DNA of 64,000 nt from NCBI RefSeq assembly GCF_040958095.1, contig NC_091208.1:5294061-5358060 (forward strand). Direction: 5' to 3'. Both the position numbers and the translations under genes were made by a program. Source of the DNA: Procambarus clarkii. Lineage: Eukaryota > Arthropoda > Malacostraca > Decapoda > Cambaridae. The notes beneath the pieces were generated by a model that saw only the letters and a list, made by a program, of their open reading frames with translations, was not told the DNA's origin and ran no database searches. This document shows positions 15,980 to 59,742 of the stretch, piece by piece (position 1 is the first letter of the stretch; every line of letters begins with the position of its first letter).

Positions 15980-16057
15980 GGTCCACTTATACCGTTGCTT
16001 GGGACTGGTTAATTAGGATTAAAGGTGTGGCGAACTGTACTGAAATTTCTCACAAAC

Positions 16058-17440
16058 CTACGGTAGTAGGAGGCAAGACCAAGGAAGCGCAGGAAGCTTC
16101 TTCCTGGTGGTAGGCTGTGGATAATGTTGGATGGCTTGAGTGTGTGAGTTTAACGGAGCTAGGCTGCCACTCCCAATAACATGACCCAGATAACGCACTT
16201 TACCTTTCGCGAAGGTGGACTTGCCCAGGTTGATGGTGAGGCCGGCTGTCAGGAGCTTGGCGAACAGTCGTCGCAGCTGGAGCAGATGTTCACTCCAGGT
16301 GTTGGATGCTACGACGATATCATCCAAATAGGCGTACATGTTACCCAAGCCCTGGATGACACGGTTGACAGCTCTCTGAAAGGTGGCCGGGGCATTACAT
16401 AGTCCGAAAGGAAGGCGTTCATATCTGAAAAGTCCAAAAGGAGTGATAAAGGCAGATATTTCTTTAGCTCGCTCCGTTAAGCACACTTGGTAATACTCCT
16501 TAAGCAAGTCCACTTGGGACAAGTACCGGGCATTACCAATGGCGTCAAGAATGTCATCTATCCTTGGTAAGGGGTATGCATCCTTGACAGTCACGTTATT
16601 TAACTTACGATAGTCAGTACATAGCCTCACCTTACCTTGGGGTTTTGGGACCAAGATACAGGGTGAGGCCCAGGGGGACTCACAAGGTGTAGCCAGTCCA
16701 TGATCCAAGAGATACTGCACCTCAGCACGCATGACTTCCTTCTTGCTAGGGCTGATTCGGTAGAAGGGTTGACGAATCGGCCGGGTGTCGGGGAGCAGTT
16801 GGATGTCGTGCTGGGTAACATTACACTCTTGGGGGTCATCTCTGAACAACTCCTGATGTTCTCTGAAGATTTTGACGAGAGGTGCACTATGTTTGTCCTG
16901 AAAATAGTTGGGAAGATCATTAAGGATTTTCGAATTAGAAAGCGCTGAATCCTTGTCAGTGCTTTCGGGAGGAGAAGCAGGGAAGGTTTCACTGTGGATG
17001 TATGGTTCTGTAAAAGCAGAGTAGTTTAGCATGACAGTGGGAGGAGTACCATTATATAGCTTCAGGAGGTTGACGTGGCACAGCTGGGTCTTCCGCCGCC
17101 TATCTGGAGTCTCTAGAACGTAGTTATGGTTGTTTCTGCACTCCTTGATGCGGTAGGGTCCTGAAAACCTGTTTTCTAAAGGAGAACCTGGGATAGGGAA
17201 GTAAGCGAGCATGAAGTCTCCCGGCTTAAATTTTCTTACTTTGCTGGTCTGGTCGTAATGAGTCTTCATCCTCTCCTGTGCTTTCAATAGATTATCTTGG
17301 GCAAAACTGTGGACTCTCTCTAGAATGTGTTGAAGGTTTTGAAGAAACTGGGGCACATTCTGATGCTCACTGAAGGTGGCATCACGTAGAAAGTCTTTGA
17401 AAGCCTTGAGAGGAGTACGGCACTTACGTCCGTAGAGCAT
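16058..17440 (-). pseudogene. pol: Integrase C-terminus and reverse transcriptase of the Gmr1-like element
   Basis: 460 codons. Residues 1-130 are the integrase C-terminal region with the GPY/F module (RFSGPYR about 91-97, following FKPGDFMLAYFP). RT follows from about residue 180: SPWASPCILVPK, VRLCTDYRKLN, FGLCNAPATFQR and catalytic YLDD at 371-374. This is direct proof that integrase sits before RT. The frame is lost at the 3' end in the thumb (LPALPWSCLLLP), and the 5' end is separated from the integrase core by a break near 17450-17490, next to a short expanded TA run. Confidence 0.85.
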
Positions 17441-17457
17441 CTCATAAGGAGATACTC

Positions 17458-19260: not shown

Positions 19261-20062
19261 ACTCGAGAAAGGTAGTGGTACTTGCCTTCAGGTGGTCACG
19301 GAATTTCCTTCGATAACTTTCGGTGGAGAGAAGGTAGGCGTCCAACACTGCTTGTTTCAGAGTCTGGTAGTCATTCTCAGACGCCAAAGTACTGAGTGTG
19401 ACTGCAGCTCTACCTGTAAGATGTACTCTGAGAAGGGTGGCCCATTGGTCGGCAGGCCAACTGAGTTGATTAGCAAGGGTTTCAAAGGTGGTGAAAAACA
19501 CGTCAACTTCTGTTTCTACAAATGATGGCATTAACTTACTTGCATGTGATATATTAAAACTGATGGGAAGATTGGCAGTAGCTTGCTGGCGTTGAGCGAG
19601 GTGTGAAGTTTCCAACGCGAATTCTCGTTGACGACATTCCATAGCCAGGGTTGCTTGGTGCTTGTCATGTTCGTGTTGCATTTCCAACTGGCGTCGTTTT
19701 GTTTCGAGCTGTATTCGTTCACGTTCACGGAGTAATGCAATCTCACATTCTTGTTCTTCCTTTCGTATTGCAGCTGCTTCCCTTTGCTGCTCACGTTCAA
19801 TCTTGGCCAGCTCTAGTTTGAGTTTCATCGTTGCCAAATCAGTTTTATCTGCAATAAAGTAAATTTCGTGAGTTTCAGAGTCTATCTTACCTTGCTCTAA
19901 GAAGTGATCCAGTAACAGGTTGTGTATTTCATTTTTGTTGGCTTGGTAGGGAACTTCCAGTTGATACTCATGTGCAAGAGTTTGTAATTCAGTCCTCTTG
20001 GCACGACTTAAAGTCCCTATTTCACCTGCTGGATCTGCACGGAAAGCTTGGAGACGAAACAA
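19175..20062 (-). pseudogene. gag: Gag of the Gmr1-like element (matrix/coiled coil/capsid)
   Basis: 295 codons. Residues about 18-57 look like a SAP-type helix pair (LSRAKRTELQTLAHEYQLEV). Residues about 80-165 are a charged Glu/Arg/Gln coiled coil. The capsid-like part follows (FFTTFETLANQLSWPADQWATLLRVHLTGRAAVTLSTL…). Gag packages the element RNA in particles. The true Gag continues in the next frame through the zinc knuckle of the following segment; the last ~28 residues here are out of frame. The SAP-plus-coiled-coil start is shared with the partial Gag at 1-631. Confidence 0.8.
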
Positions 20063-28264: not shown

Positions 28265-30107
28265 TTGAGTCGTGGGGTTAAGATTGTAGATGAATATGTT
28301 CCTCGTTTTTTCCCTGCTCAAAGAAGCAGCGAAACAACTAAAAAATCTGAAAGACGTAACAATAAGAAAAGCCGACAAAACAGCAGCATATGTATTGATT
28401 CCTACCCATGAATACATGAACAAAATTAGCGACATCCTAAGTGACGACTCCAAATTTCAACGAATTACGAGGAACCCCGTAGAAGACCTTAAGCGGAAAG
28501 TAAACAAAACAATTACAGCAATCAACGCAAAGAAAGGTAGTGTGCATTTCAATAAACTTCAAGGCGACTATGGCTTAGGATATGCCTACGGCAATGTTAA
28601 GACGCATAAACCAGGTAACCCACTACGCCCTATAATCAGCCAAATACCAACCCCAACTTATCACCTGGCAAAGAAACTCAATGAACTCCTAACTCCATAC
28701 ACTCCAAGTAAGTTTAGTCTACAATCATCAGCAGATTTCCTAGAATTGATCAAATCTACCCAGCCCGATGGAATCATCGCTTCCCTGGACGTTGAATCCC
28801 TTTTTACCAACGTCCCAGTCGACACAACCATAGGAATGATACTGGACAGAGTATACAGAGACGAGAGCACCCCCAAATTAGACATACCTGAGCCACACTT
28901 GAAATGTCTTCTCGAAGCATGTACAAAGGAAGCCCCTTTCATCAGTCCACAAGGAGACATGTATTTACAAATAGACGGAGTAGCAATGGGCTCCCCCTTA
29001 GGAGTTTTATTTGCTAATTTTTATATGGGAACCATCGAAGATAGGGTCTTCAGTAGCAGACAAAAACCAACTGTATACTGCCGTTATGTAGATGACATAT
29101 TCGTAATAGTAAAAGACTCAGATGAACTAATTGACCTAAAAAGACACCTAGAGAGAGAGTCAGTACTCCGATTTACACATGAAAATAGTGAAAATAACAG
29201 TCTGCCATTCTTGGATGTACTAATAACAAAAACAGGAACCTCTTTAAGCACCAACGTATATACCAAGCCCACCAACATAGGATTATGCCTGAACGGTAGA
29301 AGTGAGTGCCCCCAAAGATACAAAGCCAGTGTTCTCAATGCTTATATTCGTCGAGCGCTTACCCACTGCTCTGAATGGAGCAACGTGAGTAGAGAGTTTG
29401 AAAGAGTAACTCAGGTATTGGTGAACAACGGATATAGCAACGCGGAAATAAACGCTGCTATAAGAAGACACTTGGACCGTTGGTATAATTCAGAACCTAG
29501 AACAGAAACCACAACACCCCCAATAAAATTATATTACAAATCAACCATGCACAGTGAACATATAAAAGAGGAAAGAATAATGAAAGAAATAATCCGTAAA
29601 GGAGTAAAAAGCACTACTCCTAACCAAAACATAAACCTGATAATATTCTACAAAACCAAGAAGACTTCCGAACTCCTTATCAAAAACAGCCCGAAGCCGA
29701 CGGAGAACCCTCTACAGCAGTCAAGCGTTGTATACATGTACACTTGCCCCCACGAAGGATGTAACCTTCAATGTAAGTACATAGGTATGACGTCGACCAA
29801 ACTGACGAGGCGTTTGACATGCCATCTTCAATCTGGTGCCCCTAGGAATCACATGAGACAAGCCCATGACATTACTCTAACAAGAGAAATGTTGAACAAG
29901 AATACTTGCATAATAGACAAAACCCAAGATTCAAGAAGATTACAAATTCTTGAGGCAATTCACATAAGAATAGAGCGACCTACCATGAACACCCAAATCA
30001 CGGAACTATTTACTCTACCCACCATGAGAGTAAGGACAAGACAAGAATATATCGATGCCAACACAGAAGACAATGTCCAACATAACAGGCCAATTACACT
30101 GGATTAA
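28265..30107 (+). CDS. Penelope-like element family B: RT plus GIY-YIG endonuclease, 5'-truncated
   Basis: 605-codon intact frame (Met at 28290). RT: KADKTAAYVLI, GYAYGNVKTHKPGNPLRPIIS, IIASLDVESLFTNVP, GVAMGSPLGVLFANFYM and catalytic YVDD at 266-269, then LPFLDVLI. C-terminus: Cys/His-containing GIY-YIG domain (VVYMYTCPHEGC…CKYIGMTSTKLTRRL) with the late Glu in QILEAIHI. Penelope-like enzymes are related to telomerase RT and use the nuclease to nick DNA. The N-terminal FGELLFQL region seen downstream at 30370 is missing here, since the element starts at the foldback-element boundary. The frame itself is clean, so the copy was recently functional. Confidence 0.85.
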
Positions 30108-41599: not shown

Positions 41600-44500
41600 T
41601 CACCCAAAAGCAACCCCACGCACATACCCACCCGTGAACCAACCACGAAACTCGCTCGGAAACGCACGCTGCACCCACCACCACGTGAACCGCAAACGAC
41701 CCCTCAAAAAACCCAAAAGCCTAGCAACCCAATAACCCTCCCTCCGACCCACCCACACACAATACACAAAGTCAGCAACAAGAAGACAAAGCGTATTTCG
41801 AACACGGCACGACCTCCGTGGAAAGGACAAAAACAAAAACCTCAAAAGGTCACCCCGACACCCAGGCCCACAAATCCCAACCAACACGTCCCAAAACCAA
41901 TCAATCAAACCCCGCAACCGCCCGCAAAAATAAAAAACATGCAACTGTGTCTCAGGGAGACCACAGTGCACACACGCATCAGAGGCACGCAAACCCAGCA
42001 TGCACAACCGTGCATTAGTCGCCAACGACAAATGCAAGAGCCGAAACAACAATTCCCGCTGTTGCGGAGCCAGAAACCGAGCCCCCAGCGCCGCCCACAC
42101 ATCCTCCCAATCCCAACACGGGAACAAACCCTCCACCCGCGGTGGAACACGACGAAACAAAACCCGATACACTGCCTTGACCGACAAGGACAGGAACCCC
42201 GGACAACGGCAGACTTCCCGAAGAATCGCCACCGCCCAAGAGTAAACCGTGGGGTTACAGACCGCCGCCTCCCGACAAACACCAAAATCCACCAAATAGC
42301 TAAACCGAACAGAGCAATAATAAATACACAAACCATTGAGCCCCCCCACCCAACTCAAATCCCTGACACAACGAGACCCAAAAAAGTGCCCGAGCCCTCG
42401 AGAACACATCAGGAATGCCCACCCCACCCTCCCGCACAGCCAACACCAACGTCGACCGGCGAACTGGGTGGTAACGACCACACCACACATAACGATAAAC
42501 CTGGCGTTCCAACTCGAAAGCCAGCTTACGATCCAGGGGGAAGCACCGAGCCACGAACCAGATCCGGGACAAAACTTTGCAATTCACAAGCAGCGCCCGC
42601 TGATAAAGCGTCAACGGGCGCACAGCCAGCAACCCAATCGCAACACCGACACTCCGGGAAACCATTTCCCAATTGCAAGCCAAGGACCGCTCATAGGAAG
42701 CGAACCAGGTAAGCCCCAAAACCCGCATAGAAGCGACAACCGGAAACCATGACCCCACCCACACACGGCGAGAGGACCACCCACCAAGACCCATAAGACC
42801 GGATTTCGCACGGTTTACCTGCGCCCCAGTGGCCAACTCAAACCTCTCAACCACAACCTGGACCGCCCCAACCGACCCCTCCGAGGCCACGAACAGGACG
42901 GTATCATCTGCATAACCGCAGATAGGCAACCGAAGACCTGACGGCAAACGGGGGGGGGGGGGGGAAAGACGATCAACCGGCATTCCTTGATCGCCCGAAA
43001 AAAAGGCTCCTGAAAGACGATATACAGGGGCATCGAAAGCGGACAACTCTGCCGCACCGAGCGACGCACAGGGAAAGAATCACTCAAAAACCCATTTACA
43101 CAGACCCGACTACAACATTGAGCGTACAACATGAGCACCCAACGAACAAACAAGGGCGGAAATCCCAGCCTCCCCAACACGCGAAACACAAAATCGAGCA
43201 ACACACGGTCGAAAGCCTTCGACCAATCCAGACAAATCATCGCTGTCGACAAGCGAGAGTCGGACACGTACAAGAGCACATCTTGAAACAATGCATTGCA
43301 ATGCAACAAGGAACGACCCGGAACACCACAAAACTGCTCCACAGAGACAACAGACGCCACAACACTGCGACACCGACCAGCCAAGACCTTAGACAGGATC
43401 TTGTAGTTTACATTCAACAAAGTAATGGGCCGCCAGTTTGAGAAGAACCGTAAATCGCCCGACTTCGGGAGAAGCCGCACAATCCCAACGCACTGAGACA
43501 TAGGCAGAACACACTCCCGAAGACAAGTCCGGACCACCTCCAGCAGAACATCCCCCAACACATCCCAAAAGGCGACATAGAACTCAATAGGAAGACCATC
43601 CGAACCCGGCACCTTCCCGGAACGAAACGACCGCACCACCACAAGCAGCTCCGCCAAGGAGACCTCTTTCACCAGAGCAGCACACTCCGCAACCGACAAC
43701 CCAGGAAGGCACCGACCCAAGAAATCCTCCGCAAGCGCGGCGTCCCCAGCCACTTCCGCATACAGCGCAGCCAACTCCTGCCGAACATAGTGCAACACCC
43801 CACCAGTGTCCGAAACAACCGTCCCAACTGGCCGTTGCAAGGCCGTAAAAAGAACAGAGTCCCGTGCGGCCTGTACCTCACTTAAAAGAAACGGAGAAAT
43901 CCGTTCTCCGTCTACCCTCTTAATTACACGAGCCCTCACACACACACCCTCTGCCCACTCACTCCGCAACCCGCATATCTTGCAGTCCACAATCTCATCA
44001 AAACAATCAACACCAGCATCGTACCTTACATACAACCTCGACAGCTGCGCCTGCAACAACCGCAGCAACCCAAAGCGACCAGCAGCCTCGCGTTTAGCAA
44101 CCACACGAAAAAACAAACGACACTGCACTTTACACCACTCCAAGACAGACAGAAACTCACAACGCCGGGCCCGAATCCCGACCCACCAACACCGAAACTG
44201 ACGACAAACACGTGGAGAACGCAACAACCCACAGTTTAGCTTCCACCACCCCGCACCGACCCGCACCTGACCACCTGGATCCCAGAAACCGCAGGAACGC
44301 ACCACCTCCTGCAGCGCACCCGAGACATTCTGCAGACGAGCGCTACAACAATCCCGTGCACTCGTCACACAATTGAAGTCCCCTCCAAAAATCATGCCCC
44401 GCGTATCATGGCGCAAGAAAGGGAGAAGCCCCACCCGAAAAAACTCCTCCCTCTCCCGACGACGCGCCACACCCGAGGGGGCGTACACCATCAAGAACGA

Positions 44501-44816
44501 AATGACGACCCCCCAAAAACTTAACCCGCACAAATAACACCCGCCCATCCTCGTCCAACTCCGTGTGAAGCACGGAGAAGGAGGTCCTATGAGAGAATAA
44601 CATAAGGGTCCCCCCGAAAGGCGTCCTCGGCGGGTTGAGCACCACATGATAATGCACGCTCAGACACTGCAACACAGACACATCATGCACATTATGCTCC
44701 TGTATGAGAGCTACATCCACACGTTGCTCCTGCAAAACATCCAACAGGCCCAACTGGACCCCAAGAGCAATCAAACCCCGAACATTCAAGGACGCACAAA
44801 CAATGGAGGGCGCCAT
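41600..44816 (-). pseudogene. ORF2 of L1-Tx1-type LINE, copy 1 (endonuclease, RT, Cys motif)
   Basis: Starts at Met 44816 (MAPSIVCASLNVRGL). Endonuclease: SLNVRG, ALIQEHNV, MVYAPSG and GGDFNCV. RT: KVPGSDGLPIEFYVAFW, LLNVNYKILSKVLA, CLDWSKAFDRV, then after a break GYADDTVLF. C-terminus: CVHCGLPETQLHVFYFC-type Cys/His motif. It would nick target DNA and copy the element RNA. Breaks: one-base change in a G6 run near 44513, a C14 run at 42950-42963 just before the catalytic ADD, and a shift near 42300-42490. Two of the three sit in homopolymers. The RT spans segments 42815-44647, 42300-43046 and 41600-42490. Confidence 0.8.
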
Positions 44817-45388
44817 CGGGACAACCTCAGGACACCCCTAACCTGTCGCGACACACAGGCCGCACATCATCCTGGACCCCAGGGCTATCACAGTGAACAC
44901 CGCCAGTCGCTGTACCCAGCCTCACAGATGAGCCCCCTGCCGGATCCGCAGAGCCCCCACCAACCGGAACAAGGGCCGAAGCCCCCCGACAGTTATCTTT
45001 AGACAACACGACCACCAGGTCCCGGTCACCGCGATGAGCCACCCACCCAGGGGTGCCACCATCAGGAGTCGCAGCTGCCGTCACTGGAGGCACCACAGAA
45101 GAAACCTCCCCGATGTCCTCGCCCGCAACCTCCATCGCAACACCGCCCTCTGCCCACAACCGACGAGGCGATGTATTCTGAGCCGAACGACGGCGCTTCA
45201 CATGAGGCTGCTGATCCTCGGTACAACGACCCCCAGCAAGGGGTGCTCCAGAAGAACCCGACGTGGGCGGGCCCAAAGCCGAGGCAGGACGGACACACAA
45301 AGCAGCAACCTCCACAGCATGGGGCCACAGCTTACCACCACGCCCGGAGACCGGAGCAGGCCCAGAAAGCGGGAGAGCACACTCCAGC

Positions 45389-46520
45389 TCACAGGGGGGC
45401 ATCCACCACGGACGCCGAGGCAAGCGCAGCTGATGAACCACTGGACGAGGCGACCTTCGCAGACGAAAAGGGAGTCGACGCAGAGTCAGAGGGCAGGGAG
45501 GAGGACTCACACCCCACCACCCCAGCATCCCCGGGCAGCAGACAATCTTCAGCAGGGGAAGCAGGCACCACACCAACAGCAGCAGCCGAGGACCGCACAG
45601 AAGCCTCCGGCTGCAGATGCACCTCCGCCACCACCGAACGAGGAACCCCCGAGGCAGGAGCTCCCGCTCCCACAGAGCACACCGGGGAAGCAGACGTACT
45701 ATGTCCCGATCAAACAGGGACAGAGGGAGCACTTGCCGAACCCGCCGCAGGAACCACCCCAGGCACCTCGCCAGGCCGAGAAGGCGACGAGAAAGCCCCC
45801 CGCGTCTCCAAAGGGGGGAAGTCACCCTCCAAGAAAACGGAGGGAGCCTCAGCTCGAGGAGCATCACAGCTCGCCGCCACATGGCCCTCAGCACCACACC
45901 GGAAACAAATGCGAGTCTGGCCCTGATAAAATACTCTGAGCGAGAGCCCCCGATACAGAAAACGAGACAGTACCGGTGACGTAATCTTCATACCTAGTGT
46001 ACGAATGCCTGTACGCAGCCCGCTCAGCCAACCTGTACGCAGATGGTTGAAGCGATGAAACTGCACCACTCCATACTTCTCAAACACAATCCGCAGCTCA
46101 ACCTCAGATAACGTCACCGGTACACCATGCACACTCACGTACTGCACGGCCCCCCAGGGATCCGAAATGGCCACAGACGCAGCCGTGGCCATTTCCGAGT
46201 GGAACCGAGTGGCCGGCCCAACGCGCCACAAAATCCTTGTACAGCGAGCTCCTGCAGAAGGTCATCGCCACCCGCGTAGGGGAAAGCTTTTCCAGCCCTA
46301 TAAAATCCTGGACATCCACTTGAAGCACATCGACGACAGCAACTTCCACAAGCGCCCAGTCCACATCCCCTGAGAAGTCAAGGCACGCCGTATCCACCCG
46401 CCTTACACGGGACACACTACCAACCACCATACCTCCAGCCGGGCCCTCCGGCCAGCGGGCGCACCACACCACGATCCACACCCGCCTCCACTCAGCACCA
46501 GGCGACAACTGGCAGGTCAA
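45389..46520 (-). pseudogene. ORF1 of L1-Tx1-type LINE, copy 1
   Basis: Two overlapping frames. 46104-46520 gives the N-terminal half (DVQDFIGLEKLSPTRVAMTF…), and 45710-46231 gives the second half with FEKYGVVQFHRFNHLRTGW, GIRTLGMKITSPV and a CCHC knuckle CFRCGAEGHVAASC. The C-terminal Ala/Ser/Pro-rich tail continues in another frame to about 45389. ORF1 proteins of this clade bind the element RNA. A shift near 46200 and one near 45700 disrupt it. The long plus-strand ORFs here (45034-45939) are antisense by-products of GC-rich sequence. Confidence 0.65.
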
Positions 46521-47185: not shown

Positions 47186-47380
47186 TTTTTTTTTTTTTTT
47201 TTTAAAGAATACACAATGTACAAAATAGACACCCGCCGAAAGAACAAGTCATGAACATACACAGGACAAATATAAAAAAGGAAGTAAACACGGATACACA
47301 AAACATACTCAACAAAAACCAAGAAAGAAAACACATGATACAAGGCACAAAAAGAGAAAGCCCAGAAACGGGCACAGTAT

Positions 47381-47739
47381 TGTAGAGGGAACCACATTCA
47401 AAGTGCCCGCCAAGGATACATTTTACAGTATAGGCAGGGCTGTGCCCTGATTGGTGGACGGCGACGGCGCACAGCCTACCCGCGCGGCAGCCCGCGCAGG
47501 CCGAGTGGGGCAGATTTGAACTGCATGTGACCCAGCGCGGACGACGCCTACCCGGCACCACTGGCACTTAGGATATGTGCCCATAGGACCCCTAAAGAGG
47601 CATTGACTCCCTCTGTCCTACCCTTCCTGAGGAGCCTAGACTTGCTCCACCTGCCCTACCAGCCCTACCTCTCCCTACGACGACAGTGCAAGGTGAAATA
47701 TTACTGTACTATTGTTGTAACACGTGGGTCACCTCTACA
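47381..47739 (+). repeat. 5' LTR of the gypsy-PHD element
   Basis: 359 bp, TGTAGAGG…CACCTCTACA with terminal inverted repeats. One T/G difference near 47415 from the 3' LTR was seen. Confidence 0.95.
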
Positions 47740-47740
47740 T

Positions 47741-47758
47741 TGGCGCAGTGAGTAAACG
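47741..47758 (+). promoter_or_regulatory. Primer-binding site of the gypsy-PHD element
   Basis: TGGCGCAGTGAGTAAACG, one base after the LTR, starting with the TGG complementary to tRNA CCA. The tRNA was not identified. Confidence 0.6.
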
Positions 47759-48857
47759 TTCCCACGCGGTGAACAAGAGGACCTCGCCAAGATATCTGCA
47801 TCATCGTTCTGCCGACTTCAGTCAAGACGTCTTAGATAGTGTTCAACGTTTCCAGTCTCGAATTACTGGCTTTGGTTGCACCATAGATGTTCTTCGGTTT
47901 GTTGTTCAATAGCGATGCCCAAGATATTTTAACCCCTGTTTTTTTTGTGCATATGTTTTATTCCACATCTCGTGCAATCCCCCAAGATTCTCCATAAGTT
48001 CCAGTTATCAGTGTTTTATACGGATTATTTCTCCGGATTTGTTGCATTTTATTGTCTTGTCCCCCAAGCACCGATTCCCGCGGTCCCCAAGTTCTTTGAA
48101 GAAGGGGAGACGAGTACCACCATTCACACGGAATACGGGCCACCGTTCATGAGCATACCCGACCTGTACTGTTTACGAATCCGCTCGCGGAGGATTTCAG
48201 GCTGTCGTTCCCGAGCGCATCCGTCTCCAGTGTGTTTACTACAGCGACGCTGGTCCCAGCTCTGCAGGGTGCTTGCTACAGGTCTGTTACTTTCTCATTT
48301 CTACTGTTAGCTAGACGTAACCTGTTCTAGGCTTTCTACAGAAGTAACGGCTCAAGGGGAAGAGATACATTAAGTGAGCCAGTGAGTTTGTGTTCATACC
48401 AGATTTAAGGTGGATGGTGATCCGCCCTGCACACAGTTCCACACGTTCACTTGAAAAAAGTGTTTTTGGGAACCCTCAGCCCAGTGCTTATGAAAATCAG
48501 GCACATTGCTTGTTAAAGTTCCTCAACGTGCCTGCCATATCAGATTTTCCAGTTTTGCAAGTGCAGTAAGTGCCCAGTTTTTGTCTAAGCCTCAAGTGAT
48601 TTAGGTACCAATTAAGTGTGCAGTGTTTTATGTTGCTTGAAACCCACCTGGCCCCATCATTTACATTATTGACTGTGCAGTGCTTATTTTTCCTGATGGA
48701 ACATTTATCCCTATCTCTGAACATTGGAACCTTAAGTGTGGCCATTGGTGTCTGTGTTTTTTTTGTTGTATACATGTGAGGTGCCTGGCCCCAGATCTAA
48801 GGCTTATTACCAGGTGTGGCACGATATATCGGAGCTTTAACTTTCGACACCAGCACA
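47759..48857 (+). other. Leader of the gypsy-PHD element
   Basis: 1.1 kb between PBS and gag. Short ORFs (e.g. 47945-48310) show no domain. Nothing else seen. Confidence 0.6.
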
Positions 48858-50414
48858 ATGGCCCTAATCAAGATAAACTCTGCTTCGGCTGCTGAGCTGC
48901 AGCTGCTACCGGGTGTAGGAGATAAATTGGCCGCTCGCATTATCAAGTTTCGGCATCGCCACGTGATCACGGAGGACAACATTTATGATATCAACCGCCT
49001 TCGGGCCAAACCCGAGTTGTTGGCTGCTATATCGTTTGAGGTGGACCCGTCCCAACAGGGCCCCGGGCCCTCAGGTCAGGGGGCAGGAAGTCGTTCATCG
49101 TCCTCGTCCAGCGAAACGGGTACCCGCCATCCCTCTAGGGGTGCCGCCAGCAGCAGACAACGTGGACGCCGACCTCAGTCACCAGCTTACTCCAGGGCTA
49201 GTGGCCAGCAAGGTACTCGGCAGGGGAGCCCCTCCCACCATCGATCGGCTCGATCAAGGAGACGGACAGCTCGACACTCGTCACACAGCTCTCGGACTTC
49301 CGATTCGGATGCCTCTCTATCCCGCAGCAGGCGGACAGGTTATCGCCAACAGAAAGAGACCTTCCGCACACCACCTCGGGCGTTGGACTATGACGGGAAG
49401 TCAGATTGGGCCACCTTCTACCGCCGCTTCACGTCTTATGCCTCGGAAAAGGACTGGAGCGGGCCTACGTTATTGACACAGTTAGGATGGTGCCTCAAGG
49501 GTAAGGCAAGTGATTTTTACAATCACTTACTGGACAGAGAACCGTCGATCGATTATAATCGTATGATGCATAAGATGATCAAGCGATTTGGCGATAGGGA
49601 AGTTCTGGATGTAGCCATGATGAAGTTTAACCAGGCCCAGCAGGAACCAGAAGAAGATATTGCTGATTGGGCAGATAGGGCCCACCATTTGGCTCATCGT
49701 TCCTACAAACATGTGCCACGATGGGAAGTGGAACAAATCGCAGTAATGAGATTCGGCCAGGGATTACAGGACAAGACTCTGGCGGAATACATTGCCAATG
49801 CAAGGAATTCGTCAATGGAGGAGGCCATCGACCGGGCCCAAACCTTCCAGCACAATGCCGTAGCAATCCACGGCTCCGCAGGTTCAAGCAGGCACGACTC
49901 CCATCGCCGCGGGTCCCAGGGGCCAGCAGTAAGAGTGAATGCAGTGGGCAGGTACTCCCGGTATGAGCAACCACCCAGGAGTAAGGACGCTTCTCGGCGC
50001 TCGACACCGGGTGCCTCGCCGGCTACCAGTCCCGCAGGCCGTGGAACCGGTACTCACCACCCGTCGAGTGCAGGCTCGGGTCCTTCATCTTCCATGGACA
50101 CGGAGGCGAAACTGGACGTCTTGGTAGCAGGTGTCTCAGAACTCAGCGGGAAATTGGATCAGGTGTGTGAGAGTTTGAGGCGTCTCACGATGGCCATCAT
50201 ATCGCCGCATATTCGTCGTTCCCCATCTCCCAGGCGACCGCTGCAGTGTTTCAGATGTAGGAAAGAGGGTCACGTGGCTCGGGACTGTCTGGAACCGGGA
50301 AGTGATGGGGAGGGAAGCCGCCGGCTCAGAGACCCCCTGGGCAACAAGCTGCGCGTTTCATTTGAGGACGAGAAAGAGTCTTTAAACGCGGATGGGTCGG
50401 TCCAGTCGGCCTAA
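48858..50414 (+). CDS. gag: Gag with N-terminal ComEA-type helix-hairpin-helix and CCHC knuckle
   Basis: The frame is open from a Met at 48816, but the Met at 48858 has a better context (CACAATGG) and starts the domain: MALIKINSASAAELQLLPGV. Residues 1-50 match the double helix-hairpin-helix of ComEA-like DNA-binding proteins (INSASAAEL, LPGVGDKLAARII). An Arg/Ser-rich linker follows to about residue 170. The capsid then resembles gypsy Gag (LDYDGKSDWATFYRRF, LTQLGWCLKGKASDFY). The zinc knuckle CFRCRKEGHVARDC is near 50246-50288. Gag forms the particle and binds RNA. An HhH at its start is unusual and may bind nucleic acid. The gag stop at 50412-50414 lies in the loop of the frameshift signal. 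Confidence 0.9.
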   Translation: MALIKINSASAAELQLLPGVGDKLAARIIKFRHRHVITEDNIYDINRLRAKPELLAAISFEVDPSQQGPGPSGQGAGSRSSSSSSETGTRHPSRGAASSRQRGRRPQSPAYSRASGQQGTRQGSPSHHRSARSRRRTARHSSHSSRTSDSDASLSRSRRTGYRQQKETFRTPPRALDYDGKSDWATFYRRFTSYASEKDWSGPTLLTQLGWCLKGKASDFYNHLLDREPSIDYNRMMHKMIKRFGDREVLDVAMMKFNQAQQEPEEDIADWADRAHHLAHRSYKHVPRWEVEQIAVMRFGQGLQDKTLAEYIANARNSSMEEAIDRAQTFQHNAVAIHGSAGSSRHDSHRRGSQGPAVRVNAVGRYSRYEQPPRSKDASRRSTPGASPATSPAGRGTGTHHPSSAGSGPSSSMDTEAKLDVLVAGVSELSGKLDQVCESLRRLTMAIISPHIRRSPSPRRPLQCFRCRKEGHVARDCLEPGSDGEGSRRLRDPLGNKLRVSFEDEKESLNADGSVQSA

Positions 50415-50438
50415 CTCCGACCCAATGTACAACAGGCC
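50381..50438 (+). promoter_or_regulatory. Programmed -1 ribosomal frameshift signal (gag-pro)
   Basis: Slippery heptamer TTTAAAC at 50381-50387 in the correct phase (T TTA AAC in the gag frame). Spacer of 6 nt. Stem GGGTCGG (50394-50400) pairs with CCGACCC (50417-50423). Loop bases GGCCT (50408-50412) can pair with AGGCC (50434-50438), giving an H-type pseudoknot. The -1 frame is open from here into the protease. Confidence 0.85.
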
Positions 50439-50839
50439 TAGAAAGGGAGAACACGATAGGGGCGGGCCAAGGGACGTCGGGCACGGAAGAGCAGGACGGG
50501 GGAAGAGATCACATAACCATCAGACAGCTCAGATCAGGCTCTATGTTTTGGATTAGAGTCCAGATCGGGGACGTGGAGGTCAAGGCGATTGTGGATACAG
50601 CGGCCGAGGTCACCATTATCTCCCAGGAGATCCATCAACGGTTGAACCCACCACCCCAGGTGATACAACACATAACCTTAAGCAAGGCGGGGAAACAAAT
50701 GCACCTTACGGGAACACTGGTGGGCCCCATCTCCTTGCTGGTTGCGGGACGGGAATACACTGTGGGAGTGTATGTGGCGCCTATTGCAGACGACATGTTG
50801 CTAGGGCTCGATTTCATGAAAAATACGGTGTTAGTATAG
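50388..50839 (+). CDS. pol: Aspartic protease of the gypsy-PHD element (gag-pro, -1 frame)
   Basis: Reached by -1 frameshifting from gag. The region after the Met at 50543 carries VQIGDVEVKAIVDTAAEVTI, with the DTA active-site triad, and MLLGLDFM, the usual protease C-terminal motif. It cleaves the polyprotein in the particle. The frame ends at a TAG at 50837-50839, but the continuation of the protease is in the next frame. One base missing in the A5 run at about 50820-50824 would explain this. A second programmed -1 shift is a less likely alternative because no good slippery heptamer is seen. Confidence 0.8.
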
Positions 50840-50856
50840 CCCTAGACAAGTCTCAA

Positions 50857-51523
50857 ATGATATTACAGGGACAGGTGATTCCTATGAAGCTAGAGACGAA
50901 AGAGGAGCCTGACCCTAACCTAGCTCCGTGCATCGCTAAGGTAGCAGTGTTCCAATACACTGTTATCCCACCACATTCAGTGGCCAGGGTCAAATGTGAA
51001 ATGGACAAAAGTATGCCCCAGTGTATAGTGGAGCCCCTGGAGGATGGGCAGGTGCCAGTGGTTCGCACACTCCATCAGGAGGGAGAATTCCTGAAGGTAT
51101 GTGTACTCAACGTAACAGGGCAGAATATTACATTAAAGAGGCGGATGCATGTGGCCAATGCAGAGGCAGTATGGGAAATTCGACCGGGGCCGGGCCAAGC
51201 GGTAGCAGCAAGGGCAGTGGGGAGGGTACCAAGTGAAACTCAAGTCAAATTACCTCCCCATATGATGACCATGGTACAGGACGTCGAGGAAACGCTGTCA
51301 GCAGAGCAGGCAAGCCAACTGACCCACCTGTTATGGAACTTCCAGGACATCTTTGCCGCAAGTGAATTTGACCTGGGATCATTCAAGGAGGTATCTCACC
51401 GCATCGACACGGGTAATGCAAGACCTGTGAAGCAAAAAATACGACGAACACCCGCATGCTTCGCACAGGAGGAGAAAGGACACCTTCAGCGCATGCTCGA
51501 TGCGGGCATCATCCAACCGTGAG
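50857..51523 (+). CDS. pol: Pol segment between protease and RT palm, ending at an in-frame TGA
   Basis: 221 codons in the same frame as the downstream pol ORF. The linker ends in the conserved RT entry (FKEVSHRIDTGNARPVKQK, RRTPACFAQEEK…LDAGIIQP). It stops at TGA 51521-51523, and the very next codons read SEWASAPVLV, the expected continuation. So this is a single nonsense codon in an otherwise intact Pol, either a mutation, a sequence error, or a readthrough site. The LTRs are nearly identical, so a recent single change is plausible. Confidence 0.75.
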
Positions 51524-54500
51524 TATCTGAGTGGGCATCGGCACCAGTTCTGGTAAGGAAAAGGGATGCGTCAGTTCGGTGGTGTGTACACTATCGAGGG
51601 TTGAACTCTCGCACCATAAAAGACGTGTACCCACTCCCTCTAGTCGATGAGTGCCTGGACACCTTGGCGGGAAACGAATGGTTTAGCAAGCTAGATGCCA
51701 ACTCGGCATATTATCAGATCAACATAGCAGAAGAAGATCGGAAGAAGACGGCATTCATAACAAAATACGGACTGTTTGAATTTAAGAAAATGGCCTTTGG
51801 TCTTTGTAACGCTCCGGCTACCTACGCCAGGGTTATGAACTTGGTGTTGCGGGAGCTAAATTGGGAAACTGTGCTAGCATTCTTGGATGACATCCTGGTG
51901 CTGGGCGATTCATTCCAAAGCCACCTCTCCAACCTAGCACAAGTATTTGAGAGATTCAGAACCTATGGTTTACGCCTGAAACCACAAAAATGCGCCCTCT
52001 TTAAGAAACGGGTTGAGTTCTTAGGCAGGATGGTCAGCAGGGCAGGACTAGAACTGGGAAAAGAGGCGATAGACACAGTGGTGAAATGGCAGAAGCCTGG
52101 ATCATCCAAAGACGTGGAAAGATTTCTGGGGCTGGCCAACTACCATCGGACATTCATAAAGGGATTTGCAGAGTTAGCCGCACCCCTATACTCACTGACC
52201 GGCGGAAACAGATTCGAATGGGGAGACAAGCATCAGGAGGCTTTTGCAGCTATCAAAATGGCCTTAACTACAGCTCCGGTGCTGGGATTACCTAATGGAC
52301 ATGACCCCTTCATCCTGGACACCGATGCCTCCGACTGGGCGATAGGAGCGGAGCTGCTACAGGTTCAAGAGAAGAAAGAAAAGGTAATTGCCTATGCCAG
52401 CTTCGCATTGACCCCAGAACAGAGAAGGTATTGCACCACGAGGAAAGAGCTATTGGCAGTAGTCAGGTTTACTAGGCTGTTCCGGCACTATCTCTTGGGG
52501 CGGCCTTTTACCATACGCACGGACCACGGCAGCCTGGTCTGGCTAGTTAGGTTTAAGAACCCCCAGGGCCAACTAGCACGTTGGCTGGAGGAGCTGAGCC
52601 AATTTGATCTAAAAATCCAGCATAGAGCAGGTAAAAAACACAACAATGCAGACTCTTTATCCAGGGAGGGAGGCACTCAACAGGCATGTACCCACTTTCG
52701 CCAGGACGTGCCAGTGCAGGACCTGCCGTGTGGAGGATGCCCATACTGTCGCAGGGCACATCAGAACAGGGCGACCTTCCAGGAGACGGTAGATGACGTC
52801 GTCCCACTGGCTACGGGGTCGTTCAGATGTGCATGTAACGTTCAGATCCGGGGGACGATTAGACACGTGAGCACTATAGCCCCTATTCAAGACTGGTGGT
52901 CGGAAGATTCCAACTTGGCTGTCTTCCCATGGGACCCTGGTGAAGATGGCCGAAGAAAGCCTGCCGAGACGCTGGATAAGGAAGAAGACGCAGTGGCCCC
53001 AGAAGTAGTAGACATTAGGATCATCACCAGAACAACGGCGGACAGGCTAGGGTTGCATTTACTCGAGTTACAGGAGCGGACGGAGAGAGACCCGGACATG
53101 AGAATGGTAAGAGAATGGGTGGGAGGCCGTCAGCCAACAGAAGGGGACCTGTTCGGGGCCAGCCCTGCAACAAAATACTACTGGTTAAACAAAGAGGCAC
53201 TTCTCATGGAAAATGGGCTTTGGTGGTGGCACAAAGTAGATCAGGGGGGAGCCGCCCAGAAGCTTTTGTATGTACCCAGCAGCCTGAGGCAGGAGGTACT
53301 TAATCTGTGCCATGATATACCTGATATGGGCCACCAGGGCCGGAATCGCACAATGGAGCGGGTCAAAGCAAGGTACTTCTGGTACGGGCTATCAACGGAT
53401 GTCGCAAATTACGTGGCATCATGCAACCACTGTAGTATGAACAAAAAAGCATCCAAGACCAGCAGGCACGAGCTGCTTAAGTACCAGGCGGGTGCACCAA
53501 TGGAAAGGGTACACTTGGACATTCTGGGACCATTGCCTAAGACTCCGAAAGGCAACGAATATCTCCTGGTAATGGTAGATCAGTTCACTAAATGGATTGA
53601 GTGTGTGCCACTACCGTCCCAGACGGCAGAGAACACCGCCCGAGCAGCACTCGATGGGTTCTTCACCAGGTTCGGGTATCCGTTTGAAATCTTCACCGAT
53701 CAGGGCAGGAATTTTGAAAGTGACTTGTTTACGAAGCTCTGCGAATTGATTCACATCCACAAGGCCCGTACTACCGCCTACAGGCCGTCGGCGAATGGGC
53801 AGGTGGAAAGGTATAACAGAACCATCATGGATGCATTGCGGTGTTATGCCAGTTCCCAACATGACAGCTGGGACACCTATATTCAACACATAGCAGGGGC
53901 CATCAGGTCTAGTGTGAACCGACAGACGGGGTTCACGCCCAACAAGTTAATGCTCGGTTGGGAAACCAACCAGCCAATAGATTTAATGAACCCCCGGGAG
54001 GTGCAACTTCAATCAGATGCAGTACCTTACCTAGCAAATTTGCAGAAGGAAATTGAAAAGGCGCATGGACTGGCACGGAAGTCTCTATCCACAAACCAGG
54101 AACGAATGAAGAGAGATTATGACCTACGGGCACGGCTACAGGTCTATGAGAAAGGGGACCTGGTTTACCTGCTAGACACGGCACAGGTGAAGGGGCAGTG
54201 CCGGAAGCTATCACCGCAGTGGAAGGGCCCAGGCGTCATCATCCACAAGTTCTCATGTTGCTTATTTAGGGTCAAGCTCCAGAATGACAACATCACAGCA
54301 AATCATGATAAACTAAAGAAGTGCAAGGACCGTACATGCCCGGGCTGGATTGAGAACTTTAAACATCATATGTCACAGGTTCAGGACCCAGTGGGAGGGC
54401 CATATAAGGACCTTTACTGTGTGTGTCGGCAACCATACGATGGAAAGTTTATGGTGCAATGCGATATGTGCGTGGAGTGGTTCCATGGGGTCTGCGTGGG

Positions 54501-54561
54501 AGTGACTCTGGCGAGTGTACGGTCAAAACCAGAGTATGCATGTCCTCGGTGTGAGCCATAA
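51524..54561 (+). CDS. pol: Pol: RT, RNase H, integrase and C-terminal PHD finger
   Basis: Open from 51524; first Met at 51601 (986 codons from there). RT: RWCVHYRGLN (before the Met), FGLCNAPATYARVM, AFLDDILVL (catalytic FLDD). RNase H: FILDTDASDWAIG, TTRKELLAVV, IRTDHGSL. A Cys-rich spacer follows (CGGCPYCRRA). Integrase: H-H-C-C domain (GHQGRNRTM…CNHCSMNK), VHLDILGPLP, IFTDQGRNFES, ANGQVERYNRT giving D, D and E. GPY/F-like region: LSPQWKGPGVII. The C-terminus (residues 939-986) is a PHD finger, C4HC3: YCVCRQPYDGKFM, QCDMCVEWFHGVC, ACPRC. It resembles H3K4me3-reading PHDs (KDM7/BPTF type) with aromatic residues at cage positions. It takes the place of the chromodomain of chromoviruses, which suggests chromatin-guided integration. 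Confidence 0.92.
54412..54552 (+). other. PHD finger coding segment
   Basis: Zinc ligands: C940 and C942 (CVC), then the CDMC pair, the His of WFH, the Cys of GVC, and the ACPRC pair with C984. The ligand order and the WFHGVCVG core leave little doubt about the fold. In characterised H3K4me3 readers the Trp before FH and an aromatic near the first Cys form the methyl-lysine cage. Confidence 0.9.
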
Positions 54562-54562
54562 G

Positions 54563-54566
<4 letters not shown>

Positions 54567-54596
<30 letters not shown>

Positions 54597-54818
54597 AAAG
54601 GGAATAGTGTAGTGTATGCAATGTTGAAACAGTTCATGTATAGTGCAAAGATAATACGGGTAATAATTGTAATGTTCGTGTACAGTGCAAAGATAATACG
54701 GGTAATAATTGTAATAGGACCCATTCATGAAACCAGACTTTTGTACAAAAAAGACATGTTGTATATAGTGAAACGTTTTCCCTCCAACATACCCATTGTT
54801 CTATAGGGACGGGAGGAG
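54567..54818 (+). other. 3' UTR of the gypsy-PHD element with A28 and a 42-bp duplication
   Basis: A28 run at about 54567-54594 just after the stop. AGTGCAAAGATAATACGGGT is repeated at about 54640 and 54682. The purine run GGGACGGGAGGAG (54806-54818) directly before the LTR is the polypurine tract. Confidence 0.8.
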
Positions 54819-55177
54819 TGTAGAGGGAACCACATTCAAAGTGCCCGCCAAGGAGACATTTTACAGTATAGGCAGGGCTGTGCCCTGATTGGTGGACGGC
54901 GACGGCGCACAGCCTACCCGCGCGGCAGCCCGCGCAGGCCGAGTGGGGCAGATTTGAACTGCATGTGACCCAGCGCGGACGACGCCTACCCGGCACCACT
55001 GGCACTTAGGATATGTGCCCATAGGACCCCTAAAGAGGCATTGACTCCCTCTGTCCTACCCTTCCTGAGGAGCCTAGACTTGCTCCACCTGCCCTACCAG
55101 CCCTACCTCTCCCTACGACGACAGTGCAAGGTGAAATATTACTGTACTATTGTTGTAACACGTGGGTCACCTCTACA
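54819..55177 (+). repeat. 3' LTR of the gypsy-PHD element
   Basis: 359-bp direct repeat of 47381-47739. Confidence 0.95.
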
Positions 55178-56041
55178 GTATTTACCACAAAAACAGAAGA
55201 TAACATAAATAGCACACAATATAAAGAACATAAAACATCGACACATCCACAAAACCGTAAGTACAGAAATACAAAAGGAGAACGCACATACAAGCCCAGC
55301 CCAACAACCCAAACACAGGTGCATAAGAGTACAGAACCACAGGCCTCCGAAACCCCTAACAAAGAGGCAAAATTACAACACTACATTAAACAAAAAAACT
55401 GGGAAATACAGAACATTGAAAGTCAAGCAGAAATAACTGAGTACATATTTTTTTTTTTACTTTGTCTCCTTATGCATAATAAAAAGTCATAATACAAAGG
55501 CAGAACACAAAACACAAATCAAAGAAAGAACAGATAAATAAGACATAAATAGCACAAGGCAAAGTACATGGCACATAAAAAGAGACAAATGACAATCAGT
55601 AATGGCAAAAAGAACACCCATAACACAGGAACAGTAGTACATGAAAGGGGGGGGGGGCAAAACATAAACCCGGGCACCCCAACCCCCACACAGAAAATCA
55701 CAAAATACAGAAGAGGCACGCTCCAAAGACATAGGAGCAAACAAGCACACATTCCATAAAGAACAAAAATGCACAAAACATACAACCTATACAAGGCAAA
55801 CAAAAAGGCCCACGCAGGAGCCAGGGAAAATATAAAAAACACACCCACACACAAGCACACCCAAACGAACACACACCCACAGGAGCAACCACAACAGAAA
55901 CAAAACAACCACCCACACACACACACCCCGCTCAACCCCCGCCGAGGAGGCCCACCGGAGGACCGGGGACCTAAGACAAACCGGAACAAGACCCACCCAA
56001 CCAACCCACAGCCAACATCCACGAGCCCAACCCATGACCAA
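55178..56041 (-). other. 3' UTR of L1-Tx1 copy 2
   Basis: A/C-rich on the plus strand. No gene; ORFs are by-products. The part 55904-55990 matches the 3' UTR of copy 1 at 41512-41580 (ACAACCAC…CCCACCGGAGGA-like), confirming identity. Confidence 0.6.
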
Positions 56042-58881
56042 TCACTCAAAAGCAGCCCCACGAACATACACACCAGTAAACCAACCGCAAAAATCATCCA
56101 GAAAAGCACGCTGCAGCCACCACCAGGTGTACCGCAAGCAGCCTCTCAAAAACCCCAAAACCCTATCAACCCCATAACCCTTCCTCTGGCCAACCCATAC
56201 ACAATACACATAGTCAGCGACAAGAAGACATAGCGTATTACACACCCGTCGAGAGCCCCGCGGAAAAGACAAACAAAAACGGCAAAAAACCACCCCGACA
56301 TCCCGGCCCACAAACCACGGCCAACACAGCACGAAACCAATTAAGCAAACCACTCAACCTCTCACAAAAATAGAAAACATGTAACTGAGTCTCAGGCAAA
56401 CCACAGTGGACACACGCGTCAGAGGCACGCAAACCCAGCATGCACAACCGGTCATTTGTCGCCAACGACAAATGCAACATGTGAAACAACAACTCCCGCT
56501 GCTTCGGTGGTACCACTAACGCCGCCCACACCTCCCCCAAATCCCAACATGGGAATAAAGTCTCCACCCGCGGCCGAACACGACAAAATAGAACCCCATA
56601 AATTGCCTTCACCGAAAGAGACATATAACTCGGACAACGACAGACAGCCCGAAGAATGTCCACCGCCCAGGAGTAAACAGGAGGGGTACAAAAGGCCACC
56701 TCCCGACAAACACCGCAATCCACCAAAAAACTGAACCGGACCGAACAATAAAAAATACACAAAGCATTGAGCGCCCCACCCAACGCTAAACCCTGACGCA
56801 ACGAGACCCAGAACAACGCCCGAGCCCTGGTAAACACATCAGGAATTCCAACCCCACCTTCCCGCACAGCTAACACCAACGTCGAGCGACGAACCGGGTG
56901 GTAACGACCACACCACACGTATCTATAAACCTGACGTTCCAACCCCAGAGCCAGCCGGCGATCTAGGGGGAAACACCAAGCCACGAACCAGACACGTGAC
57001 AGAATTTTACAAGTAACAAGCAACGCCCGCTGATAAATTGTTAACGGGCACGCAGCCAACAACCCAACCGCAACACCAACACTACGAGAAACCGCACCCC
57101 AATTAAATTTCAAAGATCTCTCGTAAGAAGCGAACCAGGTGATCCCCAGAACATGCAGAGAGGAGACCACCGGAAACCAAGACCCCTCCCACACAAGGCG
57201 AGAGGACCACCCACCGATACCCATAACACCAGATTTGGCACGATTGACCCTACCCCAGTGGCTAACTCAAACCTCTCAACCACGACCTGGACAGCCGTAA
57301 CAGAACCAGCAGAGGCCACAAACAGGATGGTATCATCCGCATAACCGCAGATGGGTAACCGAAGATCAGAAGGCAACCGGGGGGGATGGATCAACGCACA
57401 AGCCTCGACCGCCCGAAAAAAAAGGCTCCTGAAAGAGCAAATAAAGGAGCATGGAAAGTGGACAACCCTGCCTCACCGAACGGCGTACAGGGAAAGGAGC
57501 ACTCAACAACCCATTGATGCAAATCCGACTGCAACATTGAGCATACAACAAACGCATCCAACGAACAAACAAAGGCGGAAAACCAAGCCGCTCTAACACA
57601 CGAAAAACAAAAGCTAACGACACACGATCGAAAGCCTTAGACCAATCCAGGCAAAGCATCGCTGCCGACAAGCGAGAGCCCGACACGTACAAAAGCACAT
57701 CCCGAAATAACGCATTGCACTGCAGCAACGAGCGACCAGGAACACCACAAAACTGTTCCACAGAAACAACAGAAGCAACAACATGGCGACACCGACCAGC
57801 TAAAATCTTGGACAGGATCTTATAGTCCACATTCAACAAAGTAATGGGCCTCCAGTTCGAGAAGAACCGCAAATCGCCCGGCTTCGGGAGCAGCCGCACA
57901 ATCCCAATGCACTGAGACATAGGCAGAACGCACCCCCGAAGGCAAGTCCGGACCACCTCCAAAAGAACATCACCCAACACATCCCAAAAGGCAACATAAA
58001 ACTCGACAGGAAGACCATCTGAGCCCGGCACCTTCCCGGAACGAAACGACCTCACCACATCGAAAAGCTCCCCCAACGAAACATCTTCCTCCAAACCAAC
58101 ACAATCAGCAGCAGACAACCCCAGAGCACAACCACCCAAGAAACCTTCCGCAATCTCGTGGTACTCTACCACCTCCCCATAGAGCGCAACCAACTCCTGC
58201 CGCACATAATGCAACACACCACCGGTGTCCGAAACAATGGACCCATCTGGCCGTTGCAGAGCCGTAAAAAGAACACCGTCCCGCGCAGCCTTCACCTTCC
58301 CTGAAAGAAAAGGAGAGAGCCATTCCCCGTCAACACGTTCACTCACCCGAGCACGCACACAAACACCCTCGGCCCACTCATTCCGCAAACCACAAATACG
58401 CTCCTTACACTCCGCAATCTCCCCAAAACAGTCAATCCCAGCATTGTACCGCACATACAACCGCGAATGCCTTATGACGCAGGAAAGGGATAAGCCCCAC
58501 CCGAAAAAAATCCTCTCGTTCCTTATGGCGCGCCACCCCCGAGGGGGCGTACACCGTCAGGAACGGAAGAACGACACCCAAAAACTCAACCCTCACAAAC
58601 AAAACCCGCCCATCCTCATCCATCTCCGTATGAAGCAAGGAGAAGGAAGCCCTCCTAGAAAACAACATAAGCGTCCCCCCGAAGGACGTCCTCGGTGGGT
58701 TGAGCACAACATGAAAATGCGAACACAAACACTGCAGCACAGACACCTCACAAACATTATGCTCCTGGATTAGAGCCACATCCACACGCTGCTCCTGCAG
58801 AACATCCAACAGGCCCAACTGGACCCCAAGATCATTTAAACCTCGAACATTCAAAGACGCACATACAACAGAGGGCGCCAT
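56042..58881 (-). pseudogene. ORF2 of L1-Tx1-type LINE, copy 2
   Basis: Starts at Met 58881 (MAPSVVCASLNVRGLND). The endonuclease is cut short. After GVARHKEREDFFRVGLIPFL the sequence jumps to LYVRYNAGIDCFGEI. Compared with copy 1, about 150 codons including GGDFNCV are missing, an internal deletion near 58460-58470. RT follows in 57366-58460 (KVPGSDGLPVEFYVAFW, LLNVDYKILSKILA, CLDWSKAFDRVSL, RQGCPLSMLLYLLF). GYADDTILF lies in a different frame (about 57310-57340). 56238-57224 continues to CVHCGLPETQLHVFYFC. Non-functional. Confidence 0.75.
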
Positions 58882-59261
58882 CAGGAGAACCTCAGGACAC
58901 CCCCAACCCAACGCGTCCCCCAGGGGACACAACCGCACCCGCAGCGGGAGCCACATCCATACCACCAGGCTCAACCCCCTGCCGCACCGATCCCTTGGAG
59001 TGCGCTTCCGTCGAGGAACAGAAGAGCCCAATGCAACCACAGGAGGTACAGCACAAGCGACAGCAGGCGGTTGTGCCACGGCACCAGCATCAGGAACGCC
59101 GCAGGTCTGGCCGTCAGGAGACACAGTATCAACACCGCCCCTGGCCTCGGGAAGCACACCGGCCACTGCACACGGGCTGCCCGCCGGCACCACACCACAC
59201 ACGTCGGATTCCAAGGAGACACTCTGGTCACTATGTACCTCCGCCGCCACCAGCATAGGCG
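58882..59261 (-). pseudogene. C-terminal remnant of ORF1, L1-Tx1 copy 2
   Basis: Open in frame with ORF2 (58432-59286). Ala/Val/Pro-rich tail (PMLVAAEVHSDQSVSLESD…) like the ORF1 tail of copy 1. The first residues come from the 480-bp repeat, so the LINE is 5'-truncated here. Confidence 0.5.
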
Positions 59262-59742
59262 CCTGAGTGCACGAGAGTGCGTGCACCGAGTCGAGGCTGA
59301 TTAATAAGAAACTCAGTGATGCCTTGTTGGGATGTCTTTGACAGCTTCGGTCAATGGGATCCCATTGCTGCCACGATGGCCGTCGTCGTTGTCACCATTC
59401 AGTAGTTGGTGACGTAGGATGAACTAACTATGAGCTAGTTAACTCTATTGGATGACAAATCCAGAAATAGAGTCTGGTGGTACATTGGAGAGCTGCGGTT
59501 AAGACAAGAACTATGGTTACAGGGGGGTCCCCTTGTTGGTCTTGGCCTCTTCCGTGACGCAGTCATGACGTCACGGGATCACGCCACCCAGCGGAACTGC
59601 TCGTGATTGGCTAAGCTTAGTGTCTGGAGCCTAATTGTTATTTTTTTTGCTCAGAACAAGGTCGGGGTGTGAACCACGGCCTGGAGCAGGCCGCCTCATG
59701 CCTTCCCCCTCATTTTGAAGTTGTCGCTTGCATTAGGTAGAC
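59262..59742. repeat. 480-bp direct repeat, right copy
   Basis: See 46706-47185. Begins exactly at the truncated 5' end of L1-Tx1 copy 2. CRE palindrome at 59566-59573. Confidence 0.85.

Follow-up and report, generated by a model that had tools for sequence, protein, structure and literature searches.

A PHD finger at the end of a Ty3/Gypsy integrase in Procambarus clarkii: a candidate reader of H3K4 methylation shared with relatives in other animals

What does a PHD finger do at the end of a retrotransposon integrase? The question is raised by a Ty3/Gypsy long terminal repeat (LTR) retrotransposon at positions 47381-55177 of the 64,000-nucleotide stretch of Procambarus clarkii DNA analysed here (hereafter the window), which was delimited by repeat comparison, a list of open reading frames (ORFs) and Pfam profiles. 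Its main pol ORF of 986 residues (51601..54561 including the stop codon, + strand) has the order reverse transcriptase (RT), RNase H, integrase and PHD. Chromoviruses are the textbook case of a retrotransposon integrase that recognises a silent-chromatin histone mark, and the first-pass annotation of the window proposed that this element carries, in the position of their chromodomain, a PHD finger reading histone H3 trimethylated at lysine 4 (H3K4me3), a mark of active chromatin. As a whole, that interpretation is partly supported. We assign a probability of roughly 0.64 to the reading that the PHD tail anchors the intasome on nucleosomes methylated at H3K4 and biases insertion towards active promoters.

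The window encodes a real and complete C4HC3 PHD finger of the H3K4me3-reader type at 54415..54552 (+ strand, Y939 to C984), in frame after the integrase C-terminal domain, as established by Pfam, alignments, an AlphaFold2 model and fold comparison. Its family membership is confirmed by a PF00628 match to residues 940-984 of the pol ORF (E value 3.5e-9, 37.0 bits), and the tail alone (window 54301-54558) reaches 43.5 bits (E 3.2e-11) vs a curated cut-off of 24. RVT_1, RNase H, Integrase_H2C2 and rve are found upstream in the same frame, and the stop codon follows two residues past the last zinc cysteine. The domain is thus intact, ends the ORF and lies where chromoviruses have their chromodomain, all as first proposed. 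Chance is an unlikely source, since the C4HC3 pattern appeared in none of 23,800 shuffled tails. The AlphaFold2 model has a predicted local distance difference score (pLDDT) of ~95 over model residues 131-170, which cover most of the PHD, while its predicted template modelling score (pTM) of 0.56 leaves the relative placing of the integrase C-terminal domain and the PHD uncertain. Superposed on experimental structures of the BPTF, AL1 and PPS PHD fingers, the predicted finger deviates by 1.0-1.4 Angstrom across 51-52 residues.

The assignment to the H3K4me3-reader type also stands, on the nearest solved relatives and on the presumed cage residues. By sequence, the closest solved structures include DIDO1, PPS, BPTF, PHF2 and PHF8; by fold, the best rows include BPTF, AL1, PPS, DIDO and PHF2, several of them titled as H3K4me2/3 complexes, in a table where the non-appearance of a family is no evidence against it. 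PPS, DIDO, BPTF and PHF2 are among the nearest relatives crystallised with H3K4me3, and the top matches of a PDB profile search are mostly what we take, partly from the entry titles, to be H3K4me3 readers. The zinc ligands and the fold expected of such a finger are both present. A methyl-lysine cage consists of an aromatic residue, a methionine or second aromatic, and a tryptophan; Y939, M951 and W960 supply this set at positions fixed by alignment to PHD fingers solved with H3K4me3. Counting the query, M951 and W960 occur in all 109 pattern-complete PHDs, and an aromatic residue (Y or F) at position 939, hence the entire aromatic-Met-Trp set, in 106. We consider it likely that the finger binds H3K4me2/3.

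With the full ORF as query, a protein search evaluated 8,000 candidates; 2,974 of them passed 1e-3, and the best 120 were listed. Among these best 120 of 2,974 relatives, PF00628 is found at the same end in 105 (precomputed Pfam, counted by hand) and the strict C4HC3 pattern in 102; the three that carry PF00628 and fail the strict pattern (P0020, P0025 and P0110) have lost a ligand or are truncated. The 15 listed relatives without PF00628 comprise seven that end before the PHD, six that break or end inside it, P0116 with another long tail, and P0119, which falls in the other half of the tree described below. The tail therefore recurs in other Gypsy Pol ORFs, and the one-off fusion that the first-pass annotation had allowed for is rejected. 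Named hosts of PHD-tailed relatives among those listed are Pinctada imbricata and Lytechinus pictus, together with Batillaria attramentaria for a second PHD group; several further PHD-tailed matches are named as metagenome-assembled genomes (MAGs) of clam symbionts and are probably host DNA. Residues 846-986 alone as query yielded 22 candidates, none of them reaching E 1e-3, a result attributed to the word filter, since the full-ORF query passed 2,974. None of 13 pattern matches in viral contigs was confirmed as a relative, and in genome contigs one of 23 was confirmed, in a MAG labelled Nitrospinota, which matches only the PHD part and has no pol ORF by eye. One PHD-tailed pol (P0033, 1379 residues) is also listed with PF01885, whose source name is RNA:NAD 2'-phosphotransferase.

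How the tail is distributed was examined on a FastTree phylogeny of 237 of 238 pol cores, with tails left out and the root placed at the midpoint; the Procambarus clarkii relative P0093 was dropped because it lacks the integrase. The main PHD half comprises 119 tips (support 1.0), including 103 with a complete pattern, 7 partial and 9 short or other. The remaining 118 tips contain a PHD group of six (1.0), a group of three with CW fingers (1.0) and P0225, which bears a Pygopus-type finger. A mixture-model tree of 50 of the 237 rows, chosen for spread, agrees with FastTree and supports the main PHD clade at 100. Parsimony on tail type required 4 changes over 220 classifiable tips, whereas 200 shuffles required 75 on average and never fewer than 62. 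For this count, 18 of the 238 rows were removed by hand as ending before the tail, broken in frame inside it or not classifiable, and the label for no reader, assigned by pattern and by eye, lumps tails with a basic motif and other tails without these domains. On sequence comparison, then, the PHD tail marks a large Gypsy clade across several animal phyla. Two separate origins of the PHD, as drawn in the free trees, are unsupported: a tree that unites the two PHD groups scored 23.58 log-likelihood units better and was retained by the approximately unbiased test (p-AU 0.82), so that uptake of the PHD is counted as at least once.

Zinc ligands, M951 and W960 are kept in 96-100% of aligned letters (107-114 letters per column, 121 rows), and 110 of 114 aligned letters at position 939 are Y or F in the 120 relatives and the query. 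In 99 of the 109 pattern-complete PHDs the last zinc cysteine lies at most 10 residues from the end of the protein. The PHD as a whole, with a mean column entropy of 1.66, shows no greater conservation than the RT and rve cores (1.01 and 0.83, respectively) and is more conserved than the linker preceding it (2.35). PHD distances are correlated with pol distances (r 0.645, against 0.142 for the best of 500 permutations), the pattern expected of a PHD inherited together with pol.

A second search, started from the PHD-less relative P0119, passed 3,232 proteins, and the best 120 were listed. Eight of these best 120 of 3,232 carry PF00628 (P0190, P0196, P0214, P0227, P0229 and P0232, plus P0001 and P0002 from the first search), and three (P0152, P0205 and P0233) carry a zf-CW finger behind the integrase C-terminal segment, scoring 46.8-52.9 bits with a cut-off of 27.5. 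The closest relatives of the CW finger of P0205 are those of ZCWPW2 and MORC3. In P0225, a single case, a C4HC3 finger is closest to Pygopus and scores 21.3 vs the Pfam PHD cut-off of 24. CW and Pygopus fingers both read H3K4 methylation. In these four proteins the reader precedes a terminal motif, in contrast to the PHD, which ends its protein; a short basic motif like RxGRxxxxPxxLxDY was detected by pattern at the terminus of 81 of the 118 tips of this half. Altogether, the counts come to at least one uptake of the PHD, one of the CW finger and one of the Pygopus-type PHD (a single protein), gain and loss being inseparable on a topology without an established root. We consider the odds slightly better than even that integrases of animal Gypsy elements acquired, behind their C-terminal domain, three or more kinds of H3K4-methyl reader (DIDO/BPTF-type PHD, CW and Pygopus-type PHD) and that these retrotransposons constitute an unnamed guild aiming at active promoters, with its PHD-tailed members spanning molluscs, echinoderms and, by the window copy, arthropods. 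A separate observation in this half is the pol P0235, which has an N-terminal Macro domain (residues 28-135, 116.9 bits).

The mechanism that we propose would begin, after reverse transcription, with assembly of the integrase on the ends of the complementary DNA (cDNA). Its SH3-like C-terminal domain would make the usual DNA and target contacts, while the PHD finger, held on a variable linker, would dock on H3 tails methylated at lysine 4. Anchored in this way at nucleosomes of active promoters, the intasome would insert there preferentially, and the PHD tail would be the active-chromatin counterpart of the chromovirus chromodomain. That the PHD steers integration we infer with a fair degree of confidence, lower than that for binding itself. 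A precedent for such an effect is available in an engineered system: in the accessible part of PMC8149907, the ING2 PHD fused to the integrase-binding domain of LEDGF moved integration of human immunodeficiency virus type 1 (HIV-1) towards start sites and active genes.

Several observations weigh against tethering to H3K4-methylated nucleosomes. Position 946, mapped by eye as the second BPTF cage position (Y946 in the query), is D in 60 of the 109 pattern-complete PHDs, with Trp or Tyr confined to 32, and P0020 and P0025 have each lost one zinc ligand. The single insertion examined lies among LINE-like (long interspersed nuclear element) ORFs with no host gene by eye, at a threshold of 230 residues or more that would miss short host exons. 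The pol of the window copy is broken upstream of the main ORF by a frame change after the protease and a stop codon at 51520-51522 (region 50839-51601, + strand), and is therefore not a single open frame; despite LTRs that differ at 1 of 359 nt, the interruption is either a fault of the assembly or a defect acquired very recently. Among the relatives listed there is no other decapod copy with the tail: the sole named decapod, P0093, is the closest named relative (96% identity over 49% of the query) and stops short of the integrase, which leaves the window copy as the single decapod example of the tail. Finally, no reader domain is seen in the majority of the members listed for the other half of the tree, so Gypsy integration in general can do without a reader tail.

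It is unlikely, by our estimate, that the PHD binds H3 mainly for a purpose other than target choice, such as stabilising the intasome on nucleosomes, cDNA binding, nuclear retention or regulation of the integrase. A second role of this kind is reportedly known for a chromodomain, that of Tf1, which, by the title of a study cited in PMC3601003, is said to promote both cDNA binding and target selection, and the strong constraint on the tail would hold whatever its role. Against such a role, CW (three proteins) and Pygopus-type PHD (one) occur in the same region, and what these tails have in common is histone reading and not one fold; targeting therefore fits better than a fold-specific structural role. 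More doubtful still is a finger with a different ligand, which would direct the element to other sites or factors; candidates are unmodified H3K4, some other methyl-lysine, and a host protein whose N-terminus resembles that of H3. The PHD of PHF2, a near relative, has also been solved with the N-terminal peptide of VRK1, and the second cage position is other than Trp or Tyr in 77 of 109 fingers; however, the invariance of W960 and M951 in 109 of 109, the Y or F at 939 in 106 and the preponderance of H3K4me3 readers at the top of the PDB profile search all argue for methylated H3K4. A chance fusion or functionless passenger domain is scarcely credible: although one copy was read in the window, with its pol interrupted upstream and no other tailed decapod copy among the relatives listed, conservation already contradicts it, the tail being present in 105 of the best 120 of 2,974 relatives and the zinc and cage residues being kept while pol diverged to a mean distance of 0.43 among PHD-bearing rows.

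The remainder of the element conforms to Ty3/Gypsy, with LTRs ending in TG...CA, a short target-site duplication and the order gag, protease, RT, RNase H and integrase. The 5' LTR (47381..47739, + strand, TGTAGAGG...CCTCTACA) and the 3' LTR (54819..55177, + strand) form a direct repeat of 359 nt each and are flanked by the GTAT duplication at 47377..47380 and 55178..55181. A presumed primer-binding site adjoins the 5' LTR (47740..47757, + strand; inferred from position alone), and a polypurine tract, recognised by position and composition, adjoins the 3' LTR (54806..54818, + strand). All the coding features lie on the + strand. The Gag ORF (48816..50414, 532 residues) contains Retrotrans_gag at residues 225-318 and a CCHC zinc knuckle at 477-491; its N-terminus bears a helix-hairpin-helix at residues 18-49 (HHH_3, 48867-48962, + strand, 33.1 bits with a cut-off of 27), a DNA-binding type unexpected for Gag. 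It is followed by the aspartic protease frame (50543..50839; gag-asp_proteas, 42.3 bits vs a cut-off of 28.2) and by an open frame upstream of the RT core (50857..51522), which differs in frame from the protease and ends in a stop codon. Within the main pol ORF, Pfam places Integrase_H2C2 at 53272..53448 (residues 558-616) and rve at 53494..53787 (residues 632-729), and the SH3-like C-terminal domain (54136..54333), with the GPY/F-like stretch WKGPG, matches that of foamy-virus integrase. A run of 29 A at 54566-54594 (+ strand) lies just past the stop codon of pol, still within the element and ahead of the 3' LTR. Other element types do not apply: only 257 nt separate the pol stop codon from the 3' LTR, unlike in a retrovirus-like Gypsy with env; Ginger DNA transposons have terminal inverted repeats and no RT, whereas LTRs and RT are present here; and no chromodomain occurs among the Pfam matches of the window pol at E 1, so the element is not a chromovirus.

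Elsewhere in the window, two similar LINE-like elements (41600-45897 and 56238-59286, - strand) flank the Gypsy insertion by eye. A second Gypsy element (15245-20062, - strand) has a Gmr1-like order, with integrase homology (18138-17210) upstream of RT-RNase H homology (16603-15536), and a PHD match is absent there. The ORFs at 13484-14278 and 28290-30107 (+ strand) have a Penelope-like look by eye, with a GIY-YIG-like stretch.

If targeting holds, chromatin-reading integration would have evolved repeatedly, and towards active genes too. The PHD tail would provide a functional character for classifying invertebrate Gypsy elements, which are at present grouped chiefly by RT, and reader-less relatives would serve as natural controls for targeting. 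MolGy, PolGy and the mollusc/annelid C-clade, for instance, are large invertebrate Gypsy clades defined on RT or RT/RNase H trees; one of them may be the PHD-tailed clade. The word PHD has no occurrence in the main texts of the Gypsy clade surveys PMC6238403, PMC8556966 and PMC8220671. We found no report of a PHD, CW or Pygopus-type tail on a Gypsy integrase in the portion of the open-access literature covered, with Repbase and most subscription journals outside the search; prior notice in a database is likely, given that PHD-plus-rve architectures are visible in precomputed Pfam tables.

Among known systems, host PHD fingers of DIDO1/PPS, BPTF, PHF2/PHF8 and CXXC1 share the fold and, where aligned, the cage residues, with 43-50% identity to the window PHD for those listed in the fold table (CXXC1 matched by sequence only); in contrast to it, they belong to chromatin regulators and not to integrases. 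CR1-like LINEs also offer a retroelement-borne PHD, in ORF1, although these are non-LTR elements and their PHD is not on an integrase; Kapitonov and Jurka reportedly described PHD domains in CR1-like elements in 2003. The mark of the chromovirus chromodomain is histone H3 methylated at lysine 9 (H3K9me). The window element differs from chromoviruses in having a PHD zinc finger instead of a chromodomain and H3K4me3 instead of H3K9me as its predicted mark. What the two share, from the accessible parts of PMC3601003 and PMC2774666, is the Gypsy pol order and a small histone reader behind the integrase C-terminal domain; the same part of PMC2774666 places reader-tailed integrases in both chromoviruses and CoDi-A Copia elements. 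In Ectocarpus, chromatin readers were independently gained at the integrase C-terminus of Gypsy elements, with chromodomain and Tudor tails discussed as chromatin readers in the available sections of PMC12477816, whose authors claim the first reported transposable element with a Tudor domain; these are brown algal elements with other domain folds, and the word PHD is nowhere in the main text. Ginger1-9_HM combines a Gypsy-type integrase-like transposase with a C-terminal PHD plus Ulp1, but is a cut-and-paste DNA transposon from Hydra that is bounded by terminal inverted repeats; Table 1 of the same source (PMC2836005, seen in excerpt) gives other Ginger1 families with OTU or Ulp1 without PHD and one with none. 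Reader-tailed integrases are thus a known kind, and for a PHD on a Gypsy-like transposase there is already the case of Ginger1-9_HM in that excerpt of PMC2836005.
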